From the IMG/VR virus record IMGVR_UViG_3300020445_000007, positions 1 through 44,194 of that record: a stretch of DNA of 44,194 nt. One strand, written 5' to 3'. The position numbers and the translations under genes are program-made. The DNA is from a virus. Below the pieces are notes generated by a model. The model searched no databases. It was not told where the DNA came from and was given only the letters and a program-made list of their open reading frames with translations. Positions 14,202-40,065 of this stretch are shown one piece after another. Positions within the stretch are counted from its first letter, which is position 1; the number at the start of each line of letters is the position of its first letter.

Positions 14202-14879
14202 TTAGGGCACAAATGTAGCGTCAGTAGGGGGAACTGGCCAACCAGTAAAGTTATTATAATCATATGGATCTGCTTGTTGAGACGGGAGATCTCTTAAACG
14301 TTTCCTGTATGTCTTCCAATTATCTTTAACTCTAGCAGCAGCAGGTACTTGAGCTGGGGGATCAGCAGCATAATGTTCCCATATATCTTCCAACATATAG
14401 AAATCAGTGTCTTGCATTAATTGATCTCTCATAGCACGAAGTGCTAGAAGATTCTCTGGAATTTGATTGTCAACGAAATATTTTCTCTGGTTCTCTGCAT
14501 CAAGTGCTGCTTGTTGCTCCGCATTATATGCAGTTTCGTACGTTGTACGAAGAGGAGTCAACGTGTTAACCAAAGTAGTTGCTTCATTAACCTTTGTAGA
14601 ATCATTAGTAGTAATAGCTACTTCACCACTTAGATCCTTATTTTCGGCAAGATACCAAACTGCTTCACCTACTGGATTATTTTCTTTCCAATAGTGAAGG
14701 CAAGTTAATTCATCTACACCAGCAACGTGGAATGTACCATTAATGGCAGGAAGAACTGTACTAGTCCAATCACTATCAGAGATAACAAATCCCTGTTGCT
14801 TACCAGTTGAATTTTTACCGCCGATAATTTTACTATCTACCCAGATAGTGAAATCGGCTTCTCCAAAATTACGAGCCAT
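14202..14879 (-). CDS. Tail-assembly-chaperone-like protein
   Basis: 225 aa. The C-terminal half (about 140-225) has the layout of the Phage_tail_APC family seen after fibre genes: a conserved R-x-x-R-D-Q-L helix (LRAMRDQLMQDTDFY), a Y-R-K-R-L-R-D-L-P helix, and a terminal W-P-V-P-P motif. The N-terminal 100 residues are not recognised. A central Ala/Glu-rich helix (about 115-140) may be a coiled coil. It overlaps the upstream oxygenase gene by 11 nt and is 2 nt from the next oxygenase, forming a three-gene set. By family analogy it may help fold or attach a fibre; the partner is unknown. Confidence 0.7.
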   Translation of the reverse strand: MARNFGEADFTIWVDSKIIGGKNSTGKQQGFVISDSDWTSTVLPAINGTFHVAGVDELTCLHYWKENNPVGEAVWYLAENKDLSGEVAITTNDSTKVNEATTLVNTLTPLRTTYETAYNAEQQAALDAENQRKYFVDNQIPENLLALRAMRDQLMQDTDFYMLEDIWEHYAADPPAQVPAAARVKDNWKTYRKRLRDLPSQQADPYDYNNFTGWPVPPTDATFVP

Positions 14880-27790: not shown

Positions 27791-28642
27791 TTAGAACCAA
27801 TCAGATGACCATTCACCTGATTGATCTCCCTCTGGTTGGGGTTGTCCACCACCACCAGTTGCAGGAATTGCAGTGGTTCCTTGTGGACCTCCACCTTGCT
27901 TACCTTCTTCTTGTCCTAAACGTTCTGTTGCCTCTAGCTCACTAACCATCTCTACATTGAAAGAGAATGTCATATAGAGTTTTCCGTCAGGGTTCTTAAC
28001 AATACCTGGTTGCTTATGCACCATATGACCCAACTGAGAAGGGAATATAACAACATCTCCTTCTTCTACGTTTAGAGTCATTTCCTCTTTATAGCATCCA
28101 TATCCACACATATCAGGATCGTAGAAATGCTTATTATAACGAGGTGCCTCAGAAAAGTTCTTAAGCGGGTTTATAAAAGTTGTTGACTGATGAAGTTCTG
28201 GGTCATATTGAACATACCAACAACCTGACAAATGTGAAGGTACGTGATTATGCTCTTCTTGGTTCTGACCAGGACCATATGCGTTAAACCACTGCTGTGC
28301 AACTAAAAATGCGTGAGGATAGAATTCTGCCATCTTAATGGCTTCTTGAATATTAGCAGAAATGTCCTGTAATAGAAGTCCAACTTCGATCTCGGTTTCC
28401 TTGGTATGGTCTACCATACTCTCATCAAAGAAGGATGTGTAACAATCACAATTCCAACAAGCATTTCCTCCTGTATCCCTACTATAACTATTCGACCCAT
28501 TTACTTCTTGATACCTTCTTGACAAAATCGGAAATACCGCATCTTTCCATTTGGCGTGATTCTGGAGTTTTCCCCGATATAGAAACATTGGGAATAACGA
28601 GAACAATCCATATTGGTCTAGTTTATTAGTTTGTTGGGCCAT
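27791..28642 (-). CDS. 2OG-Fe(II) oxygenase-like protein (2OG-FeII_Oxy_5 type)
   Basis: 283 aa. The core motif QEEHNHVPSHLSGCWYV (about 128-144, H131/H133) followed by GDVVIFPSQLGHMVHKQPG (H206) and KLYMTFSFNV matches the putative 2OG-Fe(II) oxygenase family often seen in marine phages. A Cys-rich patch (ACWNCDCY, 61-68, and CGYGC, 179-183) is unusual and could bind a metal. The last 50 residues are a Gly/Gln/Pro-rich tail ending in WSSDWF. It is monocistronic: a late-type box upstream and a strong terminator 20 nt after its stop. Its substrate is unknown. Confidence 0.8.
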   Translation of the reverse strand: MAQQTNKLDQYGLFSLFPMFLYRGKLQNHAKWKDAVFPILSRRYQEVNGSNSYSRDTGGNACWNCDCYTSFFDESMVDHTKETEIEVGLLLQDISANIQEAIKMAEFYPHAFLVAQQWFNAYGPGQNQEEHNHVPSHLSGCWYVQYDPELHQSTTFINPLKNFSEAPRYNKHFYDPDMCGYGCYKEEMTLNVEEGDVVIFPSQLGHMVHKQPGIVKNPDGKLYMTFSFNVEMVSELEATERLGQEEGKQGGGPQGTTAIPATGGGGQPQPEGDQSGEWSSDWF

Positions 28643-28724: not shown

Positions 28725-28743
28725 GGCGGGGTTTTTTCCCCCG
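28717..28743 (-). terminator. Intrinsic terminator after the 58-aa gene
   Basis: On the minus strand CGGGG, a loop of GAAAAAA, CCCCG and then CCTATTTTTTG form a stem and T-tract 29 nt after the stop of the 58-aa gene. Confidence 0.75.
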
Positions 28744-28970: not shown

Positions 28971-28999
28971 AGTATAGCACAGATGTCAAGTCAATTCAA
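28971..28999 (-). promoter_or_regulatory. Sigma70-like promoter before the 58-aa gene
   Basis: TTGAAT (28994-28999), a 17-nt spacer and TATACT (28971-28976) form a near-consensus host-type promoter 22 nt before the 58-aa gene's ATG, mostly in a 42-nt gap. No late box is present here, suggesting early or host-polymerase expression. Confidence 0.5.
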
Positions 29000-29890
29000 G
29001 AAAACCGTCGCTCCTGCAATAGTTACGTTAGCAGATGCTGTTATGGTTGCGTTAACACCTGCTGCCATAGTAATGGTTCCAGCACCTGCGGTGTTGACAA
29101 CGTTACCTGCTGCTACGTTAGTTATCTTGTTACCTACTGTAACAGTGGTTACATCATTACCTATCATTACTTTTTCAGTCCTACCTGTACCACCCATCAT
29201 ACCTATAATACTCTGGTATGCTGCGGTTTGGCCTGCCATTGCTGGTAGTGGTGGAACTGGGATCTTACCACCCACAGAATAACTGTCTCTACCACCAATA
29301 GTAGTGAGTTGATCACCTGCAATAGTATTAATCATATGACCCTTACTAGTGATCCAGAATGTACCTCTAGGATCAGTCATAGACAGAGTTCTCTCTCCGT
29401 GAATCTCATCTGTAACAGGACCACTAACAGTACTCTTCTTCATATCAGTGTTCTCTTCTATCCTAGGAGTGTCAATGGATAGTTTTGCCTTAGCACCTAA
29501 ACCTATTGCTTGGTTAGCGTGTATCTCTACGTTCTTACTCGACTGAATTAAAATATTACCCTCTGCTCCTAACTTAAGATCTCCTACTGCGTGAGCATCA
29601 ATGTCTCCTTTACATTCAAGTTTAGTATCACCCATTACTTCTATGTCAGCATTCTGACGAACTTTAACCATAGCATCACCCCAGACACTAACCTTTAACT
29701 TACCTCCATTCTTATTGTCGGCAGGTACTTTAACAGCAGCTATCTGTACCGATCCATCAGAGTCAAGGAAGATATGATGACCATCCTTGTGTCTGATGAT
29801 CATATACGCATCATCTTCAGCATCACATTCTTGTTTGATGTGACCAGCTCTTGATACGTATGTTTGGGTATTATTCTGGTCGTAAGCCAT
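28991..29890 (-). CDS. Baseplate needle-like beta-helix protein (gp5 C-terminal-like)
   Basis: 299 aa from the ATG at 29888-29890, chosen because it forms a TAATG overlap with the gp5 stop; an ATG 9 nt earlier would lie inside gp5. The sequence is a run of short strands of the VgrG/gp5C beta-helix type: HIFLDSDGSVQIAA, KVSVWGDAMVKVRQNADIEV, GDTKLECKGDIDAHAVGDLK, LGAEGNILIQSSKNVEIHAN. The C-terminus (TVTVGNKITNVAAGNVVN, TITASANVTIAGATVFLN) continues the 8-residue rhythm. In T4 this needle is the C-terminal part of gp5; here it is a separate gene directly after the hub. Probably a trimeric membrane-piercing spike. Confidence 0.8.
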   Translation of the reverse strand: MAYDQNNTQTYVSRAGHIKQECDAEDDAYMIIRHKDGHHIFLDSDGSVQIAAVKVPADNKNGGKLKVSVWGDAMVKVRQNADIEVMGDTKLECKGDIDAHAVGDLKLGAEGNILIQSSKNVEIHANQAIGLGAKAKLSIDTPRIEENTDMKKSTVSGPVTDEIHGERTLSMTDPRGTFWITSKGHMINTIAGDQLTTIGGRDSYSVGGKIPVPPLPAMAGQTAAYQSIIGMMGGTGRTEKVMIGNDVTTVTVGNKITNVAAGNVVNTAGAGTITMAAGVNATITASANVTIAGATVFLN

Positions 29891-32800
29891 TAGGGACAAT
29901 CAACATAGTTAGCAGGATCTTTAGCAAGTCCTTGAAGAATGAGGTTAGACTCTTCAGCAGGGACACACTGTAAATCAGCTTTTGCCTTTGCTCCGAATCC
30001 ACCACCACCATATATTTGTATGGTTGGTGTAGTTTTGTACGTCATATCCTTTCGGATCAGTTCAACACCAGTAACATATCCTCCTGCTGCTATTGTAGCA
30101 CGTGCTACACCACTTATACCATCAACTAAAACTCTTGGTGGTGTCTTATACAATCCACCAACGTTGGTAAGGAAAACACCAACTAACTGACAAACTACAT
30201 TTTCTGGTCTCTTCTTACCAGTATATCCATAGCCAGGATTAATTACTCTCACTCTTGTTAGATATCCTTCACTATTAATAATAGGTTCAACATAAGCACC
30301 GTAACCTACATTACTTTCCAAAGTAATAAATGGTCTATCAACATATCTACGACCTGATCTCTTAACCTCAATGTCTATGATACCACCACGAGTATCATCT
30401 ATGATTGGGAAATCAAATTCTGGTTCATCATCATATTCTGGTTCATCTGTCTCACCTTCTGACGGGGTGCCATCTGGAACTTTAATGACAACAGTAGCAG
30501 TAGAACCGTAGTCATCTATACTGAATACCATATTCTCTTGCTGTTCTATAGTATTATCTTCTAGAACATCTATAGCAATGGTAGACTTATTGTTCTCAAC
30601 GTATAGGTTACCCTCTAAAGGTTGTCGAATATCTGTCTGAGTAATATTAGTACCAAAGATACTATAAGGTAGTAGTTCTCCGTTATCAAAATTAGTAGTT
30701 ACTACATTAAATGTTACCGTCTCTCCTTCATCTATTATAGTCTTGTCTGGTGTAATCTTAACAGTCCTAGTGCTAGGATCAGGAACTGACTGTATTGAAT
30801 CAAGTACAGCAACACCTACAGATGTGCTGAGATTATTTAACTCTAGGTATAATTGTTCAGCAACACTGTTAGTATCTTCTACGATACCATCATCCATCAG
30901 CTTAACAGTGACCTCTGCCTTACTATTATCAACCTTAAAACTTCTAGTCAAGTCATCTGCTTGAGTGACCCAACTCTTCACACCACCCTCAATAATATAT
31001 TCGATGTCACCATATACAATACCCGTAGACTCTCTTCCTAGAGTATAATTTACAACAGTACCATCATCAACATTCTGTGTTGTAAGTCTAAATGTAACCT
31101 CTTCTCCCTCATATACTACCTCTCTAGTAGCAGTCAAATGATAGACAGGATTAGTTAAGTTAAGTGCAGGTGTAGATGATCCACTTCCAATGTCAGGGAC
31201 AGTGAGTGTAGGAATATTTGTTATTGCTTGTGGATCCTTCATCCAGATACGTGCAATAGGTTTCAATACCTTGCCGCATCCATCGTGATCCATACGCAAG
31301 AAGAAATATTTCGATCCATCTTTAACACCATTGTTAAGTGTCTTAACTTCAACAATCTTCTCTGTCTCTCCAATACCAAATCCTATGAAACCATTAACAG
31401 GACAGTAATCTTCTGTTGCTTTAGCAGTTCCGTCTTGTGTATAGTATGTAATAGAGCTAGTAGTTGTTGTGTCTCCACCTCTAGTAATCCTAATGTATGC
31501 TATGTCTCCCTCCTGTACTGCTGAAATCTCTGGGATATCAACAACCTTAAAGGTTCTAGCATTACATATCGCTGCTGCTATATCCTCGTAATCTATTCCG
31601 TCTGTACCTCCATTAGTACCAGAACCAGGAGTAGTACCAGTACCTGTTGTACCTCCATCAGTACCAGCGCCAGGTATTGTTGGACCCCATATATTAACTT
31701 CTGTCGTTGGTTCTGGATCTGTAGTAGCATCACCACAATAAGAATCAATAGGAAGATGATTACCTGTCTCTAAATCTGCTAGTAATTCATCAAGACTATT
31801 AAATCCTCCCTTAAGTCCTTCAAGTGAACCATTCTTTGAACTAACCTTAGCTGGTTTTGAACACTTCTTCTTACCACTACAAGAAATGCCTAACATCTTC
31901 ATAATATTTGCTAGTCCACCACCAATAATATCTACAGCACCACCAATAGCTCCAAGTACTTTAGATATACCACCAAACAATCCATCAATCATCCCTGAAA
32001 TCTCACCAAGGACATTACCAAAGATAGCGTCAGCAAATCTCTTAACCTGACAAGCACTCCAGTTAATAATGTTGCCAACATATCCCATTAGGATATTCTC
32101 AGCAAAGTTTTCAATCCTACCACTGATGTCCATCATTGAACATCCTAAACGCTCCAGCATCTTCTGGAACCACTCGGTAACAGTTGTCAATATACCAGGA
32201 AGAGGAGCTAGAAGTGCCTTCATCAATGCTTTCACTGCTTTACGCAGCATATTCATCATCTCACCCATAATGCGAGACATAGCAGCATTCATTATCTTCT
32301 TGACTCTGCTGATATATCCCTTAGCAATACTCTGTATCTCAAACAGACCACCAGTATACTTACTGATATAATACGAACCTATGTTACCATTCGTATGCTG
32401 TAGAGTAGCAAAGAACTCTGACAATACATTCTCTATTTGTGAGGATGGACTCTCTGGACAGTCTACTGAAGCACGTGTAACCTCAAACACTCCTCCTTGG
32501 TTAGCAGGTGATGCTTCATCTCTAATTCCATTAAGACCATCCGATGCACTAGATGTACCTAATCTACCAAGAGGTTTAGTACCACCATCAACACATTGGT
32601 CTTGACTGGTATGAACACGTGGATTAGGATCATTACCTTTCTCTAAGTCCTGATTAACAGTCTTAGTTAATGGAATCGGTTCCTTACCTGTTGCTATCGG
32701 TTCTTCATCTGTAGCACAAGCAACACCTGAATCCATTACACCCACAACCACAGGGTTGTCGGTATCTCCTTGTATGAGTTTAATTAGGACTGGATCACCC

Positions 32801-33048
32801 ACCTGCATATTATGACTTGATGCAGATGTATGTGCTCCACCAGAATGAGTGACAGGCATCAATACCCTCGACCAAGGTAAATCCTTAGTCGGAGGGATGC
32901 CTATCCTAGACTCACCTTCACCTTCATACTCGTGGATACCAATGATCCTAACCTTGACTCTACCAGAGCCTTTGGGATCATCTATATCCTCTACGTATGC
33001 CTCGTGTAGGTCAAACGCCTTATCATTAGTAGTCCTATTACTTCCCAT
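29890..33048 (-). CDS. gp5: Baseplate hub gp5-like, OB fold with Calx-beta and GxGY domains
   Basis: 1052 aa against 575 in T4. Residues about 10-110 are the gp5/VgrG OB fold (EAYVEDIDDPKGSGRVKVRI, PWSRVLMPVTH, VGDPVLIKLIQGDTDNPVVV). About 205-400 is amphipathic and hydrophobic. About 500-600 is a Calx-beta-like domain (YYTQDGTAKATEDYCPVNGF, IGFGIGETEKIVEV), followed by one or two related but weaker repeats to about 850. About 880-1040 are GxGY repeats also found in gp53 and the giant protein. No T4-type lysozyme motif is visible. It starts in a TAATG overlap with CP12 and ends in one with the needle gene. It should form the centre of the baseplate with the gp27-like protein. Confidence 0.85.
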   Translation of the reverse strand: MGSNRTTNDKAFDLHEAYVEDIDDPKGSGRVKVRIIGIHEYEGEGESRIGIPPTKDLPWSRVLMPVTHSGGAHTSASSHNMQVGDPVLIKLIQGDTDNPVVVGVMDSGVACATDEEPIATGKEPIPLTKTVNQDLEKGNDPNPRVHTSQDQCVDGGTKPLGRLGTSSASDGLNGIRDEASPANQGGVFEVTRASVDCPESPSSQIENVLSEFFATLQHTNGNIGSYYISKYTGGLFEIQSIAKGYISRVKKIMNAAMSRIMGEMMNMLRKAVKALMKALLAPLPGILTTVTEWFQKMLERLGCSMMDISGRIENFAENILMGYVGNIINWSACQVKRFADAIFGNVLGEISGMIDGLFGGISKVLGAIGGAVDIIGGGLANIMKMLGISCSGKKKCSKPAKVSSKNGSLEGLKGGFNSLDELLADLETGNHLPIDSYCGDATTDPEPTTEVNIWGPTIPGAGTDGGTTGTGTTPGSGTNGGTDGIDYEDIAAAICNARTFKVVDIPEISAVQEGDIAYIRITRGGDTTTTSSITYYTQDGTAKATEDYCPVNGFIGFGIGETEKIVEVKTLNNGVKDGSKYFFLRMDHDGCGKVLKPIARIWMKDPQAITNIPTLTVPDIGSGSSTPALNLTNPVYHLTATREVVYEGEEVTFRLTTQNVDDGTVVNYTLGRESTGIVYGDIEYIIEGGVKSWVTQADDLTRSFKVDNSKAEVTVKLMDDGIVEDTNSVAEQLYLELNNLSTSVGVAVLDSIQSVPDPSTRTVKITPDKTIIDEGETVTFNVVTTNFDNGELLPYSIFGTNITQTDIRQPLEGNLYVENNKSTIAIDVLEDNTIEQQENMVFSIDDYGSTATVVIKVPDGTPSEGETDEPEYDDEPEFDFPIIDDTRGGIIDIEVKRSGRRYVDRPFITLESNVGYGAYVEPIINSEGYLTRVRVINPGYGYTGKKRPENVVCQLVGVFLTNVGGLYKTPPRVLVDGISGVARATIAAGGYVTGVELIRKDMTYKTTPTIQIYGGGGFGAKAKADLQCVPAEESNLILQGLAKDPANYVDCP

Positions 33049-33275
33049 TAGTCATCATATACCAAGCACTCGGGCTCATCTGGGTGCATTTCACAGAAGA
33101 GTTCGATGGCATTAGGATCGTGATGATCTCCTGCTTCAATCTCATCGTGGTGATGCTCTCTATACACCTCCAACTCGTGTAACTCTTCGTTGATGTGCCT
33201 ACGTGATGCAGCACTAGTCTGAGGATCATCCAAGATGTCCCTGTCTTTCTTAATGTGTTCTTCGATAGTTGTCAT
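33048..33275 (-). CDS. cp12: CP12-like Calvin-cycle regulator
   Basis: 75 aa. The C-terminus (HDPNAIELFCEMHPDEPECL, then VYDD) matches the CP12 C-terminal signature: E-L-x-C, a Pro in the loop, E-C, then V-Y-D-D, with C61 and C70 nine residues apart as in CP12. The N-terminus (TIEEHIKKDRDIL, RRHINEELHELEVY) is a charged helical region like marine cyanobacterial CP12, and lacks the N-terminal Cys pair, as some relatives do. CP12 binds GAPDH and phosphoribulokinase and turns off carbon fixation; cyanophages carry it to divert host carbon. Here a late-type box lies just upstream, and its stop overlaps the gp5 start, so it is apparently expressed with the baseplate hub. Confidence 0.75.
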   Translation of the reverse strand: MTTIEEHIKKDRDILDDPQTSAASRRHINEELHELEVYREHHHDEIEAGDHHDPNAIELFCEMHPDEPECLVYDD

Positions 33276-33297
33276 AAGAATAATGCTTACGATATGG

Positions 33298-33519
33298 TTA
33301 TTTAGTGCCGAGATTAGTTACTTCTACATCCGATCTACGGTTAGTGTCGGTTGAATCATAACTCTCTAGCTTTTGTTTCATCTGTTCTAATACCAGAGCC
33401 AGTTGTCCATACAACTTCGCTCTCATATTTTCATCTTCTTCTACTTTTATTTTCTCAAGGATAGTGTAAGCACCTTGAGTTATTTCTGGTGGATATTGAT
33501 CCAAAAACGAAGTGTCCAT
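33298..33519 (-). CDS. Small helical protein, 73 aa, unknown
   Basis: 73 aa, acidic and mostly helical: a middle helix (YTILEKIKVEEDENMRAKLY) leads into GQLALVLEQMKQKLESYD, a possible coiled coil, and then a polar tail ending NLGTK. It lies 3 nt after the gp27-like gene, so it is probably co-translated with it. Its TAA stop is inside the late-promoter-like box for the CP12-gp5 unit. No family recognised. Position between two hub genes suggests a small hub or chaperone factor, which is inference only. Confidence 0.65.
   Translation of the reverse strand: MDTSFLDQYPPEITQGAYTILEKIKVEEDENMRAKLYGQLALVLEQMKQKLESYDSTDTNRRSDVEVTNLGTK
33299..33306 (-). promoter_or_regulatory. Late-promoter-like box ACTAAATA before cp12-gp5
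   Basis: ACTAAATA overlaps the TAA stop of the 73-aa gene and lies 24 nt before the cp12 ATG. The stretch CGTAAGCATTAT between box and gene also occurs just before the 58-aa gene at 28948. Confidence 0.5.
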
Positions 33520-33522
33520 AGG

Positions 33523-34893
33523 TTAGCAATTTTTGTTGATAGTATCCCTAACTAGGGTTGCAGCAGTCCAGCACTCCTTCTTAGGTACCATAGAAAAGTA
33601 TTGACATAATCTATAGATGAGGTAATGCCCACTCAATTCTTTATCATAACTATCTACTGATGTTTTATGATCTGGTCTTGAGTCACGGAGATAGAGTTTA
33701 ATCTTATCCCCTGCGTGCAGGTATTGATTACCAGGAACTGTGATGTTAGCTGTGGTCAGTTGCATTGTAGCACGTCTTGCCTTATATTGCACGATTGTTT
33801 CCTCATCCCAATCTTGGTAGGTAGCAGACTGACTGTTAGTTTCAGTGGCCAACTGACCTGGATCTGCTTTCTCCTCATCGTCGTGGAAGTTCTCGTGACT
33901 TATCTCCAACTTGAATGTCTTGTTTGCCTTACCTGCTGACATAAACTCCTTAAGAAGCTTACTTCTTTCCCAAGGTGCAGACCCCTCTGTCTTAGCAATA
34001 TGTCCCCACCTATCCCAGTATTCACTAATATTCCATAGTTTCTTAGTATATTTCTTAGTGTCTGTATTATATACGATAGCATTAGCAAGGAAGACACCAT
34101 CATCACACATCTTCTTACAGTTTCCTCTATCAGTGACTGAGAAATTACCTATGATTAACTGTGCTGGCATATCCAAACTCACTGCCTCTGATGCTTGGTA
34201 GTATGAGTACTCAGCATCTGCTCCATTATGTGCACCACCTACAGCAAGTAAACTATCAATAGACTTGAACTTAACCTTGTATGTGTTGGAGTCTGACATA
34301 TTCTTCTTGGTTCCCCAACAAAAATACCCACAAGTATTCATAGTCTTACCAGATGCAGGTATAGACTGCGAACATATATCATAGACAACATCTTTTAATG
34401 GTTTCTTTGATGCTGTTACTATTAATGGATTAAAAGGTGCGTTACCATCACCCTCAATTTGAGGTTCAAACTCAGCATCTGCAAATACTTTCTGCAATAT
34501 CTCATAACCATTTCCTTTATAAGAGTCAGTAGCTTTCCACTTTGACATAGCAATTGACTCAGTACTAACAAGAGAACAGGTATATATTTTACCATCCTCT
34601 CCTGCTGAATCAGTCTGTATCTTCTCAACATTACCGTGGAAGATCATATTGTCATCATCAGTATGAGCACTAGTCATATAGGCTATCGATACTACATCTC
34701 CCTCAGATACATTAATGTTCTGCTTATTATCAGCAAACTTTATTACTGCTACTGGATTCAATCTAGTAAGATCTTCAAAGTACTTGAAGGTCATTAGATT
34801 ATTTCTAAGGTCAATCAACCTATTATTACCCAGTTGAATCTTACAGACAGTTAGATGCCAATCAGTAGCAGAACGATTATCAGTAGTTGCCAT
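33523..34893 (-). CDS. Putative baseplate hub protein, gp27-like
   Basis: 456 aa. Beta-rich with no signal peptide. The opening (WHLTVCKIQLGNNRLIDLRN, then FKYFEDLTRLNPVAVIKFAD) and FHGNVEKIQTD, IYTCSLVSTESI and GYEILQKVF resemble the plan of hub proteins of the gp27/VgrG-N/gpD type: a tube-like domain, then a region describing a second tube-like domain. The C-terminal part (NQYLHAGDKIKLYLRD, SGHYLIYRLCQYFS) fits the same plan. It lies between the tape-measure-like gene and the CP12-gp5 unit, where a gp27 equivalent is expected. Assignment is by position and fold pattern, not clear identity to T4 gp27. Confidence 0.6.
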   Translation of the reverse strand: MATTDNRSATDWHLTVCKIQLGNNRLIDLRNNLMTFKYFEDLTRLNPVAVIKFADNKQNINVSEGDVVSIAYMTSAHTDDDNMIFHGNVEKIQTDSAGEDGKIYTCSLVSTESIAMSKWKATDSYKGNGYEILQKVFADAEFEPQIEGDGNAPFNPLIVTASKKPLKDVVYDICSQSIPASGKTMNTCGYFCWGTKKNMSDSNTYKVKFKSIDSLLAVGGAHNGADAEYSYYQASEAVSLDMPAQLIIGNFSVTDRGNCKKMCDDGVFLANAIVYNTDTKKYTKKLWNISEYWDRWGHIAKTEGSAPWERSKLLKEFMSAGKANKTFKLEISHENFHDDEEKADPGQLATETNSQSATYQDWDEETIVQYKARRATMQLTTANITVPGNQYLHAGDKIKLYLRDSRPDHKTSVDSYDKELSGHYLIYRLCQYFSMVPKKECWTAATLVRDTINKNC

Positions 34894-34895
34894 AG

Positions 34896-37580
34896 TTAAT
34901 TAACGCTATGGGGGAACACAATTCCACCATCATCTATAGATGACTCTGTATTTATTATAATACCCGAAGCCCACGGTGGTATATCATAACTATTTCCAGC
35001 ACTATTTCCACCACTCATTCCACTACCACCAGTCAATCCTGCTCCAGCATTAGTTGATTGTAACATAGTACTGATAGCCGCTGCTTGATCCGAACCATTC
35101 GATGTATTCGGTGTTATCTTCGCACCATTATTAGTTGTCTGGGAAGCACTTACATTAGTGTTTGTAGATGATGATGACGTAGACATATTTGCTGTTGCTG
35201 ATGCAACCTTTTCAAAAGGTGTCTGCAATGAATATCCAAATTCTCTTGGGTCTTTAAGACTAGGACCACCACGTCCAACGTCTGCTTCTACAGTACCAAT
35301 CTCCCAATGTAAGTGTGGTGCACTAGAAGTACCTGTATTACCCATCTTACCAGCAAATGTACCACCAGGGAACATCTTACCTTGTTCAAGTGGTGATTTG
35401 TTCTGCATATGACCATACAAATGGGTCAATCCATCATTCTGAGTGGTAAAGGTAATGTAATTACCATACCCATTAGGATCCAGTCCATTACTTGTTATCT
35501 TAGCCTTATTAGGAAGGAACATAGGTTGTCCTCCCTTATCACCAGCAAATCCTATGTCAATACCTTGATGGTTAGGTCTACTTGCTGTCTTACGTCCGTG
35601 TGTGAGTACTGCTGTCTCGTTTGTTGGTTTAGCAATATCGCCACCACCAATACCCGTAGCAGTACCTCCACCAAGGATTAATCCTGGAGAACCACCACCT
35701 TGTCCTTCTGCACGATCTTTTCTACCCTGTTCTGTTGGAAGAGCAGTGTTAGTATTGTCAACGAAACTATTAATATTACCCAGAACATCACCACTCATAG
35801 CCTCACCGAAACCAGCTAGCATACCCTTCAGAGCTTTTGATCCAGGTACCCAATCAGGTATCCTATTAATAATCCCACCTAGCAAACTCCCTATACCTTT
35901 AACAAGCCAGACTAGACCCTCAACTACTTTACCTATAATCTGTACGGCCCATTGGATGGTTTTCAATGCCATCTGTAGTATTGGTACTAGAGTTTTGATT
36001 AATATCTTAGCAATGATACCAATAATTCTACCAATATTCTTTATAGCAGTGATGAATCCTCCACCACTATCATCACCACCAATACCAAATGACTTAGCCA
36101 CACCATTCAATGCATCACCAATACCTGTGGTCATTTCTTTCCAAACATTCAGCACAGGTCTGAAGGTCTCACCCCAATCAAATCCTTTAAAGACTGAACC
36201 AATACCCTCACCTAAAAACTTACCTAAGTTCTCACCTAACCAAGCACCAAGAGCAGCACCAATAGGACCAGCAATTGCGAAACCTAAAGCAGTACCAGCA
36301 CCAGCACCTAGACCAGCACCTACAGATCTACTAACAATCTTATTCTTATCCTTACTTAACGTACCATTTTTTAAGTTTGCATTGATGTCCTCGTCAGTCA
36401 TCATTGGATTCTCTTTACGCAAACGTTCCATCTCTTCATCGTTTGCTTCCATCGCACCGAAACCAGCACTAAGTAATGATCCAAGGATAGGAATCCTCTT
36501 CATTCCTTGACTAGTTGCCTTCAGTCCTCCTCCTATTACTTTCCTACTAGTATTAAGTCCTCCACTAATACCCTTAAACCCTTGGTATATACCTTTAGGT
36601 GCAGCTTGAAGACCTTTACCTAGGTTTTGTATACCACCCGACAACATTCCCTTAGAAAGGTTCTTCAACTGAAGACCTATACCTTTCAAACCATCAGTAA
36701 TATTCTTTAACCTTATATTTTTAAGACCCTTAAAGAAATTTCCAATAGATTTAAGAGCATCATCTAAACCACCTCCTTTCCTAAGGAATTTGTTAAGACC
36801 AGGTGCTGTATAATTCTGTGCATCAAAACCTGACTTAAACTGATTGAACATACCACCCTTAGGACCAAGGGTATTACGAAGTCCAAGTCTTGCCCCAAGT
36901 GGTAACCTAGGACCAGTAAAAGGAGTAGCTAAACTGGTACCAAGATTCTCTATGCTCTTACCAGTAGCCTTAATACCTTTTAATACAGGTACACTAGCTG
37001 CTCTCCTGAGTCTACGAATGCCACTTGTCTGATCACCAAGATCGAACCCTCTCCTAAGAATATTCTTACCTAATGCACCAGCCTTCTGACCTTTATTCCA
37101 TTGCGTAAAACCCATCGCAACTGGACGGGTATCAAAATCACTAAACCCATCAATTGATGGAGTAAATTTATCCCATACTTCATTAACTTTCGCAAGTGTT
37201 CCTCTTGCTTTCTCGTCTAATTTCTGTGTAAATCTTCTTAAGAGTTCAGGACCAAAGAGAGCTGCCAGCAAAGCAGCATCCATAACACCTAAACCTCCTG
37301 TCCCTATACCCTTACCACCAGCACTTCTTATTAAACCTGGACCACCACCAGACTGTCTTTCTATTCCAGTTTCTTGACGAGCAAAGGCTTGCGACCGTAA
37401 ATTCTTCTGCTCAAAAACAAAATACTGTTTGTTTAACTTTAACTGCTCTGTCTGTATATTAACAAGGTCAGACAACAGACTATTCGTAATCATATGCTGC
37501 TTCAAAGAAGCTGCAGAAATTGAATCATTATCGTTGCCAATAATGTTCGGTGCTTTCTGTTCTCTAGATTCGGGTGCCAT
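34896..37580 (-). CDS. Tape-measure-like protein with C-terminal M23 peptidase
   Basis: 894 aa. The N-terminal two thirds are Lys/Gly-rich amphipathic helices; about 425-580 is strongly hydrophobic (GFAIAGPIGAALGAWLGENL, IIGIIAKILIKTLVPILQMA), as in tape-measure proteins. About 665-775 is a LytM/M23 metallopeptidase: H671-x3-D675 (NHQGIDIG), H720/H724 (HLYGHM) and H756-x-H758 (HLHWE), the full zinc-ligand set. The tail is Ser/Asn-rich. It directly follows the gp26-like gene and the 58-aa ORF, the standard chaperone/tape-measure order, and its start is in a TAATG overlap. Likely sets tail length and cuts peptidoglycan during entry. T4 gp29 (590 aa) lacks this peptidase. Confidence 0.75.
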   Translation of the reverse strand: MAPESREQKAPNIIGNDNDSISAASLKQHMITNSLLSDLVNIQTEQLKLNKQYFVFEQKNLRSQAFARQETGIERQSGGGPGLIRSAGGKGIGTGGLGVMDAALLAALFGPELLRRFTQKLDEKARGTLAKVNEVWDKFTPSIDGFSDFDTRPVAMGFTQWNKGQKAGALGKNILRRGFDLGDQTSGIRRLRRAASVPVLKGIKATGKSIENLGTSLATPFTGPRLPLGARLGLRNTLGPKGGMFNQFKSGFDAQNYTAPGLNKFLRKGGGLDDALKSIGNFFKGLKNIRLKNITDGLKGIGLQLKNLSKGMLSGGIQNLGKGLQAAPKGIYQGFKGISGGLNTSRKVIGGGLKATSQGMKRIPILGSLLSAGFGAMEANDEEMERLRKENPMMTDEDINANLKNGTLSKDKNKIVSRSVGAGLGAGAGTALGFAIAGPIGAALGAWLGENLGKFLGEGIGSVFKGFDWGETFRPVLNVWKEMTTGIGDALNGVAKSFGIGGDDSGGGFITAIKNIGRIIGIIAKILIKTLVPILQMALKTIQWAVQIIGKVVEGLVWLVKGIGSLLGGIINRIPDWVPGSKALKGMLAGFGEAMSGDVLGNINSFVDNTNTALPTEQGRKDRAEGQGGGSPGLILGGGTATGIGGGDIAKPTNETAVLTHGRKTASRPNHQGIDIGFAGDKGGQPMFLPNKAKITSNGLDPNGYGNYITFTTQNDGLTHLYGHMQNKSPLEQGKMFPGGTFAGKMGNTGTSSAPHLHWEIGTVEADVGRGGPSLKDPREFGYSLQTPFEKVASATANMSTSSSSTNTNVSASQTTNNGAKITPNTSNGSDQAAAISTMLQSTNAGAGLTGGSGMSGGNSAGNSYDIPPWASGIIINTESSIDDGGIVFPHSVN
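34949..34956 (-). promoter_or_regulatory. Late-promoter-like box AATAAATA
   Basis: AATAAATA (7 of 8) lies within the last codons of the tape-measure gene, 56 nt before the gp27-like ATG. Being coding, it may be chance. Confidence 0.35.
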
Positions 37581-39261: not shown

Positions 39262-40032
39262 TTAGAACAGGTTATCGAATTCTGAGGAGAAATCGTTGAA
39301 TGCATCCTTGACTTTATCAATAGCACCTTGGAATGTAGCAGGGTTCTTGTTAGAGCTAGTAATATTATTAGTCTTACTCTCTATGTTTGATCTTGCATCT
39401 TCATACTGTACTTCAAACCTTTCATAGTGGAAGTTAACAGTAGCAGTCATCAGAGTTGTTGTTCCTGCATCCAATGGTATCGCATCGATAGAATAAGGAT
39501 AAGCACTAGTAAAGAAGTAACGAATACTTCTACCTTGCTCACTGTATCGTGGACCTGCTTCAAACTTGTCTACAATTACTGTTCTTTGATAATCATCAGG
39601 GTATGACATCCGAGTGAAACGATTTCTATTACGCTGAGGGTAATGAGACATCTCGTTAGGGATCCTCTCCTTCTGATTAAACATACTCTTCTCTTGAAAG
39701 ATTCTATCGAACCAAGAGTTCATTACTTTGAACCCAGTCATATTTGCATCGCAAATAAAACTGAGACTTAAATCACTATACATTTTCATTGTGGGATACT
39801 TATAAGATGATCCTGTATAGTATCCATTCACTTGCTGAGTAGCTGCTTGTACGCTAGGCAGTGATGCTGCATTACACAAAACTTCCAGTGTACTTCTATC
39901 GAAATTCACTGGAAAATCTGAATTAAAGATTCCCCCCTGTAAATCAGGGAAAACAACACGAAACTGGTTGGACTTAGCAATCCCACCACCACGATTTAGT
40001 TTCTCCTGAACCTTAGAGTATAGGTTTGCCAT
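39262..40032 (-). CDS. Tail-tube-fold protein, probable gp54-like tube initiator
   Basis: 256 aa. The sequence has the gp19/gp54 tube-protein plan: FRVVFPDLQGG, LEVLCNAASLPSVQA, YKYPTMKMYSDLSLSF, then CDANMTGFKVMNSWFDRIF and a C-terminal strand MTATVNFHYERFEV. It is longer than gp19 (163 aa) and nearer gp54 (320 aa). T4 has gp54 next to gp48; here gp48 is close by on the other strand. It lies first in its unit, behind a CATAAATA box. Tube initiator at the baseplate-tail junction is the best guess; a second tube protein is the alternative. Confidence 0.68.
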   Translation of the reverse strand: MANLYSKVQEKLNRGGGIAKSNQFRVVFPDLQGGIFNSDFPVNFDRSTLEVLCNAASLPSVQAATQQVNGYYTGSSYKYPTMKMYSDLSLSFICDANMTGFKVMNSWFDRIFQEKSMFNQKERIPNEMSHYPQRNRNRFTRMSYPDDYQRTVIVDKFEAGPRYSEQGRSIRYFFTSAYPYSIDAIPLDAGTTTLMTATVNFHYERFEVQYEDARSNIESKTNNITSSNKNPATFQGAIDKVKDAFNDFSSEFDNLF

Positions 40033-40039
40033 CTAAATA
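40032..40039 (+). promoter_or_regulatory. Late-promoter-like box TCTAAATA before gp4
   Basis: TCTAAATA on the plus strand lies 24 nt before the gp4 ATG, in the 30-nt gap between divergent genes. It starts on the last base of the opposite gene's ATG. Confidence 0.55.
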
Positions 40040-40057
40040 GGCTAAAGGAATACATCT

Positions 40058-40065
40058 TATTTATG
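40058..40065 (-). promoter_or_regulatory. Late-promoter-like box CATAAATA before gp54-like gene
   Basis: CATAAATA (7 of 8) lies 26 nt before the ATG of the gp54-like gene and includes the gp4 start codon on the other strand. With the plus-strand box it makes a face-to-face pair of late promoters. Confidence 0.55.

Follow-up and report, generated by a model that had tools for sequence, protein, structure and literature searches.

The window, i.e. the whole stretch of DNA analysed, is the 44,194-base IMG/VR virus record IMGVR_UViG_3300020445_000007, which is probably a fragment of a virus genome. On its minus strand, a gene for the small protein CP12 is located downstream of a tail protein gene and upstream of a gene for a gp5-like baseplate hub protein, which is directly followed by a second hub or tail-lysozyme-like ORF (Table 1). 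The tail protein is homologous, as judged by position and tblastn, to GC15 of S-SM1-type phages. In contrast to the cyanophages compared below, one extra small ORF lies between this gene and cp12; it matched no Pfam or PHROG family over the cut-off and has relatives in 7 of the 142 listed cp12 loci. An 894-aa protein with an M23 peptidase domain is encoded upstream of the tail protein (34896-37580, minus strand), and the Calx-beta domain of the gp5-like hub protein covers residues 507-590. A weak candidate terminator is predicted past the hub ORFs; the terminator scan of the region was not above chance, with 2 sites found versus a shuffle average of 3.0.

Table 1. Features around cp12, with positions in the window.
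Feature	Position	Strand	Remarks
Possible intrinsic terminator past the hub ORFs, hairpin and T-rich tail	28727..28743	(-)	weak; terminator scan
Second hub/tail-lysozyme-like ORF, directly 3' of gp5-like	28991..29899	(-)	phrog_4540; start codon as mechanically listed
gp5-like baseplate hub protein, 1052 aa	29890..33048	(-)	phrog_1922; Pfam Phage_base_V and Calx-beta
TAATG, cp12 stop overlapping the gp5-like start	33046..33050	(-)	1-nt overlap
cp12	33048..33275	(-)	75 aa; ATG start, TAA stop
C-terminal GAPDH-binding motif CEMHPDEPECLVYDD	33051..33095	(-)	codons 61-75; from the translation, binding from CP12 literature
73-aa ORF between tail protein and cp12	33298..33519	(-)	ORF list
Late-type promoter box CTAAATA (by sequence match)	33299..33305	(-)	23 nt before the cp12 ATG; TAAATA begins 29 nt before the ATG
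T4-GC15-type tail protein, 5' of cp12	33523..34893	(-)	phrog_350
AATAAATA box	34949..34956	(-)	TAAATA 61 nt before the tail protein start

The profile search which the sequence-only reading had proposed was run and identified the predicted CP12-like protein as such: the Pfam CP12 family matches with 45.5 bits (cut-off 22.7) over residues 3-74 and profile positions 4-70 of 70, and phrog_627 matches over the full length. Similarity thus extends past the last 25 residues, as is also evident from the N-terminal half (residues 1-42), which is 52% identical to that of a Prochlorococcus CP12; taken on their own, residues 1-50 matched no Pfam family and residues 46-75 did match. C61, P65 and C70 together with a YDD end form the CxxxPxxxxC pattern with acidic tail, the C-terminal stretch which in CP12 binds GAPDH (PMC9406205). 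C61 and C70 are the only cysteines, so that the earlier observation of a C-terminal pair alone holds; the N-terminal Cys pair of the classical CP12 form is absent, and of the classical AWD_VEEL core no AWD was found in the window protein. An AlphaFold model (mean pLDDT 76) places helices at residues 4-16, 22-47 and 57-63, a fold search retrieved the CP12 of 6gfo as best, weak PDB match (E 0.85), and a sequence search of PDB chains retrieved CP12-type chains only (E 0.03-0.39). The gene product is a CP12 of full length whose C-terminal motif is intact.

Loss of cysteines as a mark of a new role was considered and rejected, as host proteins show the same pattern. The 75 distinct CP12 sequences from genome contigs, which a split by length divides into 65 Prochlorococcus-type, nine phage-like 75-aa and one 77-aa protein (L116) outside both, all possess the C-terminal Cys pair only and none carries AWD. 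Since the N-terminal pair is absent in all 65 Prochlorococcus-type proteins, it is not required for a marine CP12 and its absence from phage CP12 is inherited; marine picoplankton have been named as an exception to the classical form (PMC3906501). The window protein shares with Prochlorococcus CP12 the C-terminal motif and the lack of both N-terminal Cys pair and AWD, but has 75 aa, whereas the Prochlorococcus proteins as a rule have 72 aa. Among the genome contigs, L109 (NZ_RMVE01000006.1), a 188-kb contig of a Nonlabens xiamenensis assembly, encodes a CP12 with two differences, counted by eye, from that of cyanophage P-TIM40; because of this near identity, it looks like a cyanophage contig inside a Bacteroidetes assembly.

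AWD is likewise absent from all 142 listed viral CP12s, of which 141 retain the C-terminal motif, the exception, L207, lying at the end of a contig stretch with its last residue not read as D. For pairs of dS 0.1-1.2, the only ones compared, the ratio of mean dN to mean dS amounts to 0.088 among gp5-linked genes (251 pairs) and to 0.116 among those with cpeT (185 pairs), and in the gp5-linked class pN of residues 51-75 is about one quarter of that of residues 1-50; cp12 is under purifying selection. A cp12 tree of 148 sequences implied 22 changes of context, 10 changes between tail and other positions and 16 changes of the box, and carries no weight here because only 28 of its 144 inner branches are starred. 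Most likely, the window CP12 is itself an ordinary CP12, and late timing is the unusual claim.

CP12 matches (E up to 0.01) were found in 362 of 50,697 phage records. The order tail protein-cp12-gp5 occurs in S-SSM7, ACG-2014e, Bellamy, S-CAM9 and S-WAM2; cp12 is followed by cpeT and later gp5 in P-SSM4, Syn9, S-SM1, S-SSM5 and P-TIM40; and cp12 stands next to talC in P-HM1 and P-HM2, in which the tail protein-gp5 site lacks cp12 and is joined by TAATG. Variable places of talC and cp12, including near gp5, have been described since 2010 (PMC3037559), and the gene and its place between tail protein and gp5 are already known. Cyanophage CP12s (T4-GC337, phrog_627), such as those of P-RSM6, S-SSM7, S-SM1, Bellamy and P-HM2, resemble the window protein in being full-length with the C-terminal Cys pair only (P-RSM6 with 77% identity); several of these phages also carry cp12 between the GC15 tail protein and gp5, and Bellamy shows the same 1-nt overlap with gp5. 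Unlike in the window, cp12 has no box of its own in S-SSM7 and Bellamy, and in P-HM1/2 its neighbour is talC and a sigma-70-like promoter overlaps the box. In P-TIM68 (L002, 7001-7228), cp12 is located just before baseplate wedge genes and not gp5, with TAAATA 31 nt upstream.

The cp12 stop codon indeed overlaps the gp5 start, the join reading TGACTAATGGGA. From this, the sequence-only reading had argued that cp12 is translationally coupled, or locked, to the hub gene; while the 1-nt overlap is real, coupling has the overlap as its one argument and TAATG is routine here, occurring at four other joins of the window (1618, 18917, 19855 and 20664), so that coupling as a special sign was rejected. 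The overlap was found in 19 of the 70 listed gp5-linked loci, those with a cut upstream end included, and not in the others.

The late-type box upstream of cp12 was likewise borne out, by sequence match, and covers the end of the 73-aa ORF. TAAATA occurs 22 times on both strands of the window, at six places as CTAAATA, and lies 27-40 nt upstream of 8 of the 25 listed gene starts with 0.09 expected (Poisson P about 8e-14). These eight genes comprise five of structural families, one 2OG-Fe(II) oxygenase, cp12 and the gene at 14202-14879. With the late promoter of T4-type phages (TATAAATA), given as NATAAATA for S-PM2 (PMC2984593), the window boxes share the core TAAATA and the narrow distance before structural genes; different from it are the CTAAATA version and the position in front of a metabolic gene. 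The 2OG-Fe(II) oxygenase-like gene (27791-28642, minus strand) is situated among tail genes and has a separate CTAAATA box (28672). At 40032-40065, a tail tube gene (minus strand) and a head closure gene (plus strand) diverge from a 30-nt gap in which late boxes face one another; the start codon ATG on the plus strand is the complement of CAT in the CATAAATA box of the other.

Viral cp12 loci were compiled from three sets: the 80 best among 378 relatives, 77 additional loci out of the 80 best among 591, and 17 loci from annotated records; these 174 loci comprise 142 distinct by sequence, the window not counted, and 141 once a locus with less than 60 nt upstream is set aside. As only best matches were kept, the set leans to close relatives. 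TAAATA is present 22-45 nt before the cp12 ATG in 106 of these 141 distinct listed loci, as compared to 4.3 boxed loci on average and 11 at most after dinucleotide shuffling of the upstream regions, and the 105 boxed loci with sufficient upstream sequence can be sorted into 26 groups whose upstream sequences are dissimilar. By context, the box precedes cp12 in 39/39 listed loci with cpeT, 2/2 with the order tail protein-cp12-talC, 7/7 with cp12-talC elsewhere, 15/15 of other contexts, 5/8 with tail protein-cp12 and another or a cut downstream end, 37/67 with tail protein-cp12-gp5 and 1/3 of the latter order with a cut upstream end. In thirty-three of the 35 listed loci which lack the box, gp5 follows cp12 directly or the sequence is cut at this point; L218 and L223, also without box, have gp5 740 and 594 nt away respectively.

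Control genes were counted in the same manner on the best 80 loci per gene, with duplicates and loci without usable start or upstream stretch dropped. The box was present before the portal gene gp20 in 66/66 loci, and before psbA in 0/75, td in 0/75 and talC in 3/56. Among the cp12 genes of genome contigs, and different from the window gene, those of Prochlorococcus type carried it in just 1/65 and phage-like ones in 6/9. In P-HM2, where unit heads were classed manually and hypothetical genes were not counted, 11 of 13 structural unit heads have the box 22-67 nt upstream, versus 3 of 16 heads of replication or metabolic units (Fisher P 0.0007). Of the metabolic genes tried, cp12 is therefore the only one regularly located behind a late box. 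The new point is this late box before most cyanophage cp12 genes examined, and its presence in most relatives suggests that cp12 may be made late in infection.

With a probability of roughly 0.55, we favour the reading that a host-derived cp12, flanked on either side by a tail gene in a T4-like cyanophage genome, is transcribed late together with gp5. The usual spacing of the window box, the order box-cp12-gp5-hub ORF and the lack of a strong sigma-70-like promoter close by point to this timing. The phage late sigma factor would give a single mRNA for cp12 and gp5, possibly terminating at the weak hairpin at 28743, and CP12 would then be made during virion assembly. Its C-terminus could bind host GAPDH, and perhaps PRK, as host CP12 does, and carbon fixation held down late in this way would leave ATP and NADPH unspent there while virion proteins are made. 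Such a late CP12 would have a purpose, since S-PM2 is reported to be energy-limited for late protein synthesis (PMC5931967); the connection is only suggestive because S-PM2 itself lacks CP12 (PMC3037559). According to reviews, CO2 fixation stops at about 2 h with S-RSM4, a phage that has cp12 along with other carbon genes, and at about 4 h with S-PM2, which is without them, a difference that does not suggest a late CP12 effect. The sequence-only reading, whose observation at the locus is confirmed, had offered as one option that carbon-flux control continues during assembly; of this interpretation, late control is backed by the box, the relatives and the control genes, while the reading as a whole found partial support.

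A less likely alternative holds that cp12 is a middle gene, transcribed from a host-like promoter or by read-through, with a late box that only prolongs or boosts expression. In the published RNA-seq of P-HM2, the metabolic genes including cp12 are expressed only in the middle cluster and cp12 is among the most expressed genes (PMC5082946), which disagrees with the early expression that had been expected for CP12 and also speaks against late timing, as P-HM2 cp12 has the box; P-HM2 psbA, with TAAATA 43 nt upstream, is boxed too. The box CATAAATA of P-HM2 cp12 is overlapped by a TTGACA-17-TAGGAT promoter, and overlapping early and late promoters are described to give middle expression in RB49 and probably in S-PM2 (PMC2984593). 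TTGACA-17-TAGAAT is found upstream of cp12 in S-SSM5 and L206, and TAGACA-17-TATTAT, perhaps sigma-70-like, in Syn9; together with the sites in P-HM1/2 and the 35 of 141 listed loci without box, these also count against the late reading. On the other hand, a stricter scan detected no sigma-70-like site on the minus strand of the window from the cp12 start to 34225, and by a looser rule the window gene reaches just 6 of 12 within 90 nt, with a 9-of-12 site about 85 nt upstream; a hidden sigma-70 promoter is not favoured. Over all listed loci, sites of at least 9 of 12 in the 90 nt upstream are near the expectation from shuffles (27/140 versus 21), the excess being clearest in the talC class (3/7 versus 0.4 expected), and the typical middle genes tried, psbA and td, have no box in their control counts. 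As to published timing, S-SSM5 cp12 is reported to be expressed (PMC9723779), the accessible passages of field metatranscriptome and S-PM2 papers do not mention cp12 (PMC7238727, PMC5931967), and the literature searched, in its accessible parts, yielded no statement of late cp12 transcription in Syn9 or P-TIM40.

That the box is merely the promoter of gp5, and that cp12 came by chance into an insertion spot between tail protein and gp5 where its late transcription serves no purpose, appears unlikely. It is true that the window box is the nearest one upstream of gp5, that the P-HM2 site exists with a TAATG join and without cp12, and that the box is altogether missing from 30 of the 67 listed loci in which gp5 follows directly; but cp12 is boxed also in contexts without adjoining gp5 (cpeT 39/39, both talC contexts 9/9, other contexts 15/15 of those listed), gp5 itself is boxed in 36 of the 37 listed loci where cpeT parts it from cp12 (approximate starts), and selection has maintained the cp12 protein. 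Highly improbable is the other option of the sequence-only reading, a CP12-like protein turned virion or hub-assembly protein, for which only its position argues, i.e. the stop-start overlap with gp5 and the shared late box. In S-SZBM1, where gene 65 (tail protein) is followed by gene 64 (cp12), oxygenase, cpeT and gp5, the same type of box (GATAAATA, TAAATA 27 nt upstream) precedes a cp12 away from gp5, and gene 64 is absent from the published table of 30 virion proteins, in which gene 65 and a 9-kDa protein are listed; this table also lacks the gp5-like gene 61, though the text of that paper counts it as detected. No CP12 is named among the 52 virion proteins of S-CREM2, whose cp12 is a deep branch. 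Furthermore, record notes tag the tail protein and gp5, but not CP12, as similar to an S-SM1 protein, a tag taken as the mark of virion proteins, and CP12 features are seen at either end of the protein, in the conserved C-terminal motif and the host-like N-terminus.

The accepted model is that phage CP12 diverts carbon to make NADPH for nucleotides. Beyond this contig, it is possible, at somewhat less than even odds, that cp12 of many T4-like cyanophages is part of the late regulon, unlike psbA, talC and td, and that CP12 acts as a Calvin-cycle brake during assembly, at a time when the phage is limited by energy for protein synthesis, rather than chiefly supplying nucleotide synthesis; the late box would remain with cp12 as the gene changes genome sites. 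L218 and L223 without box and the additional sigma-70-like sites in S-SSM5, L206 and perhaps Syn9 weaken this generalization. The claim is checkable in existing infection time courses of Syn9, P-TIM40, P-SSM2 and S-SSM5. If true, the metabolic genes of one phage would be split between regulons, and, if many phage cp12 genes are late, their timing would fit the saving of ATP and NADPH for virion proteins better than the accepted model, a conclusion which would apply to many cyanophage cp12 genes.
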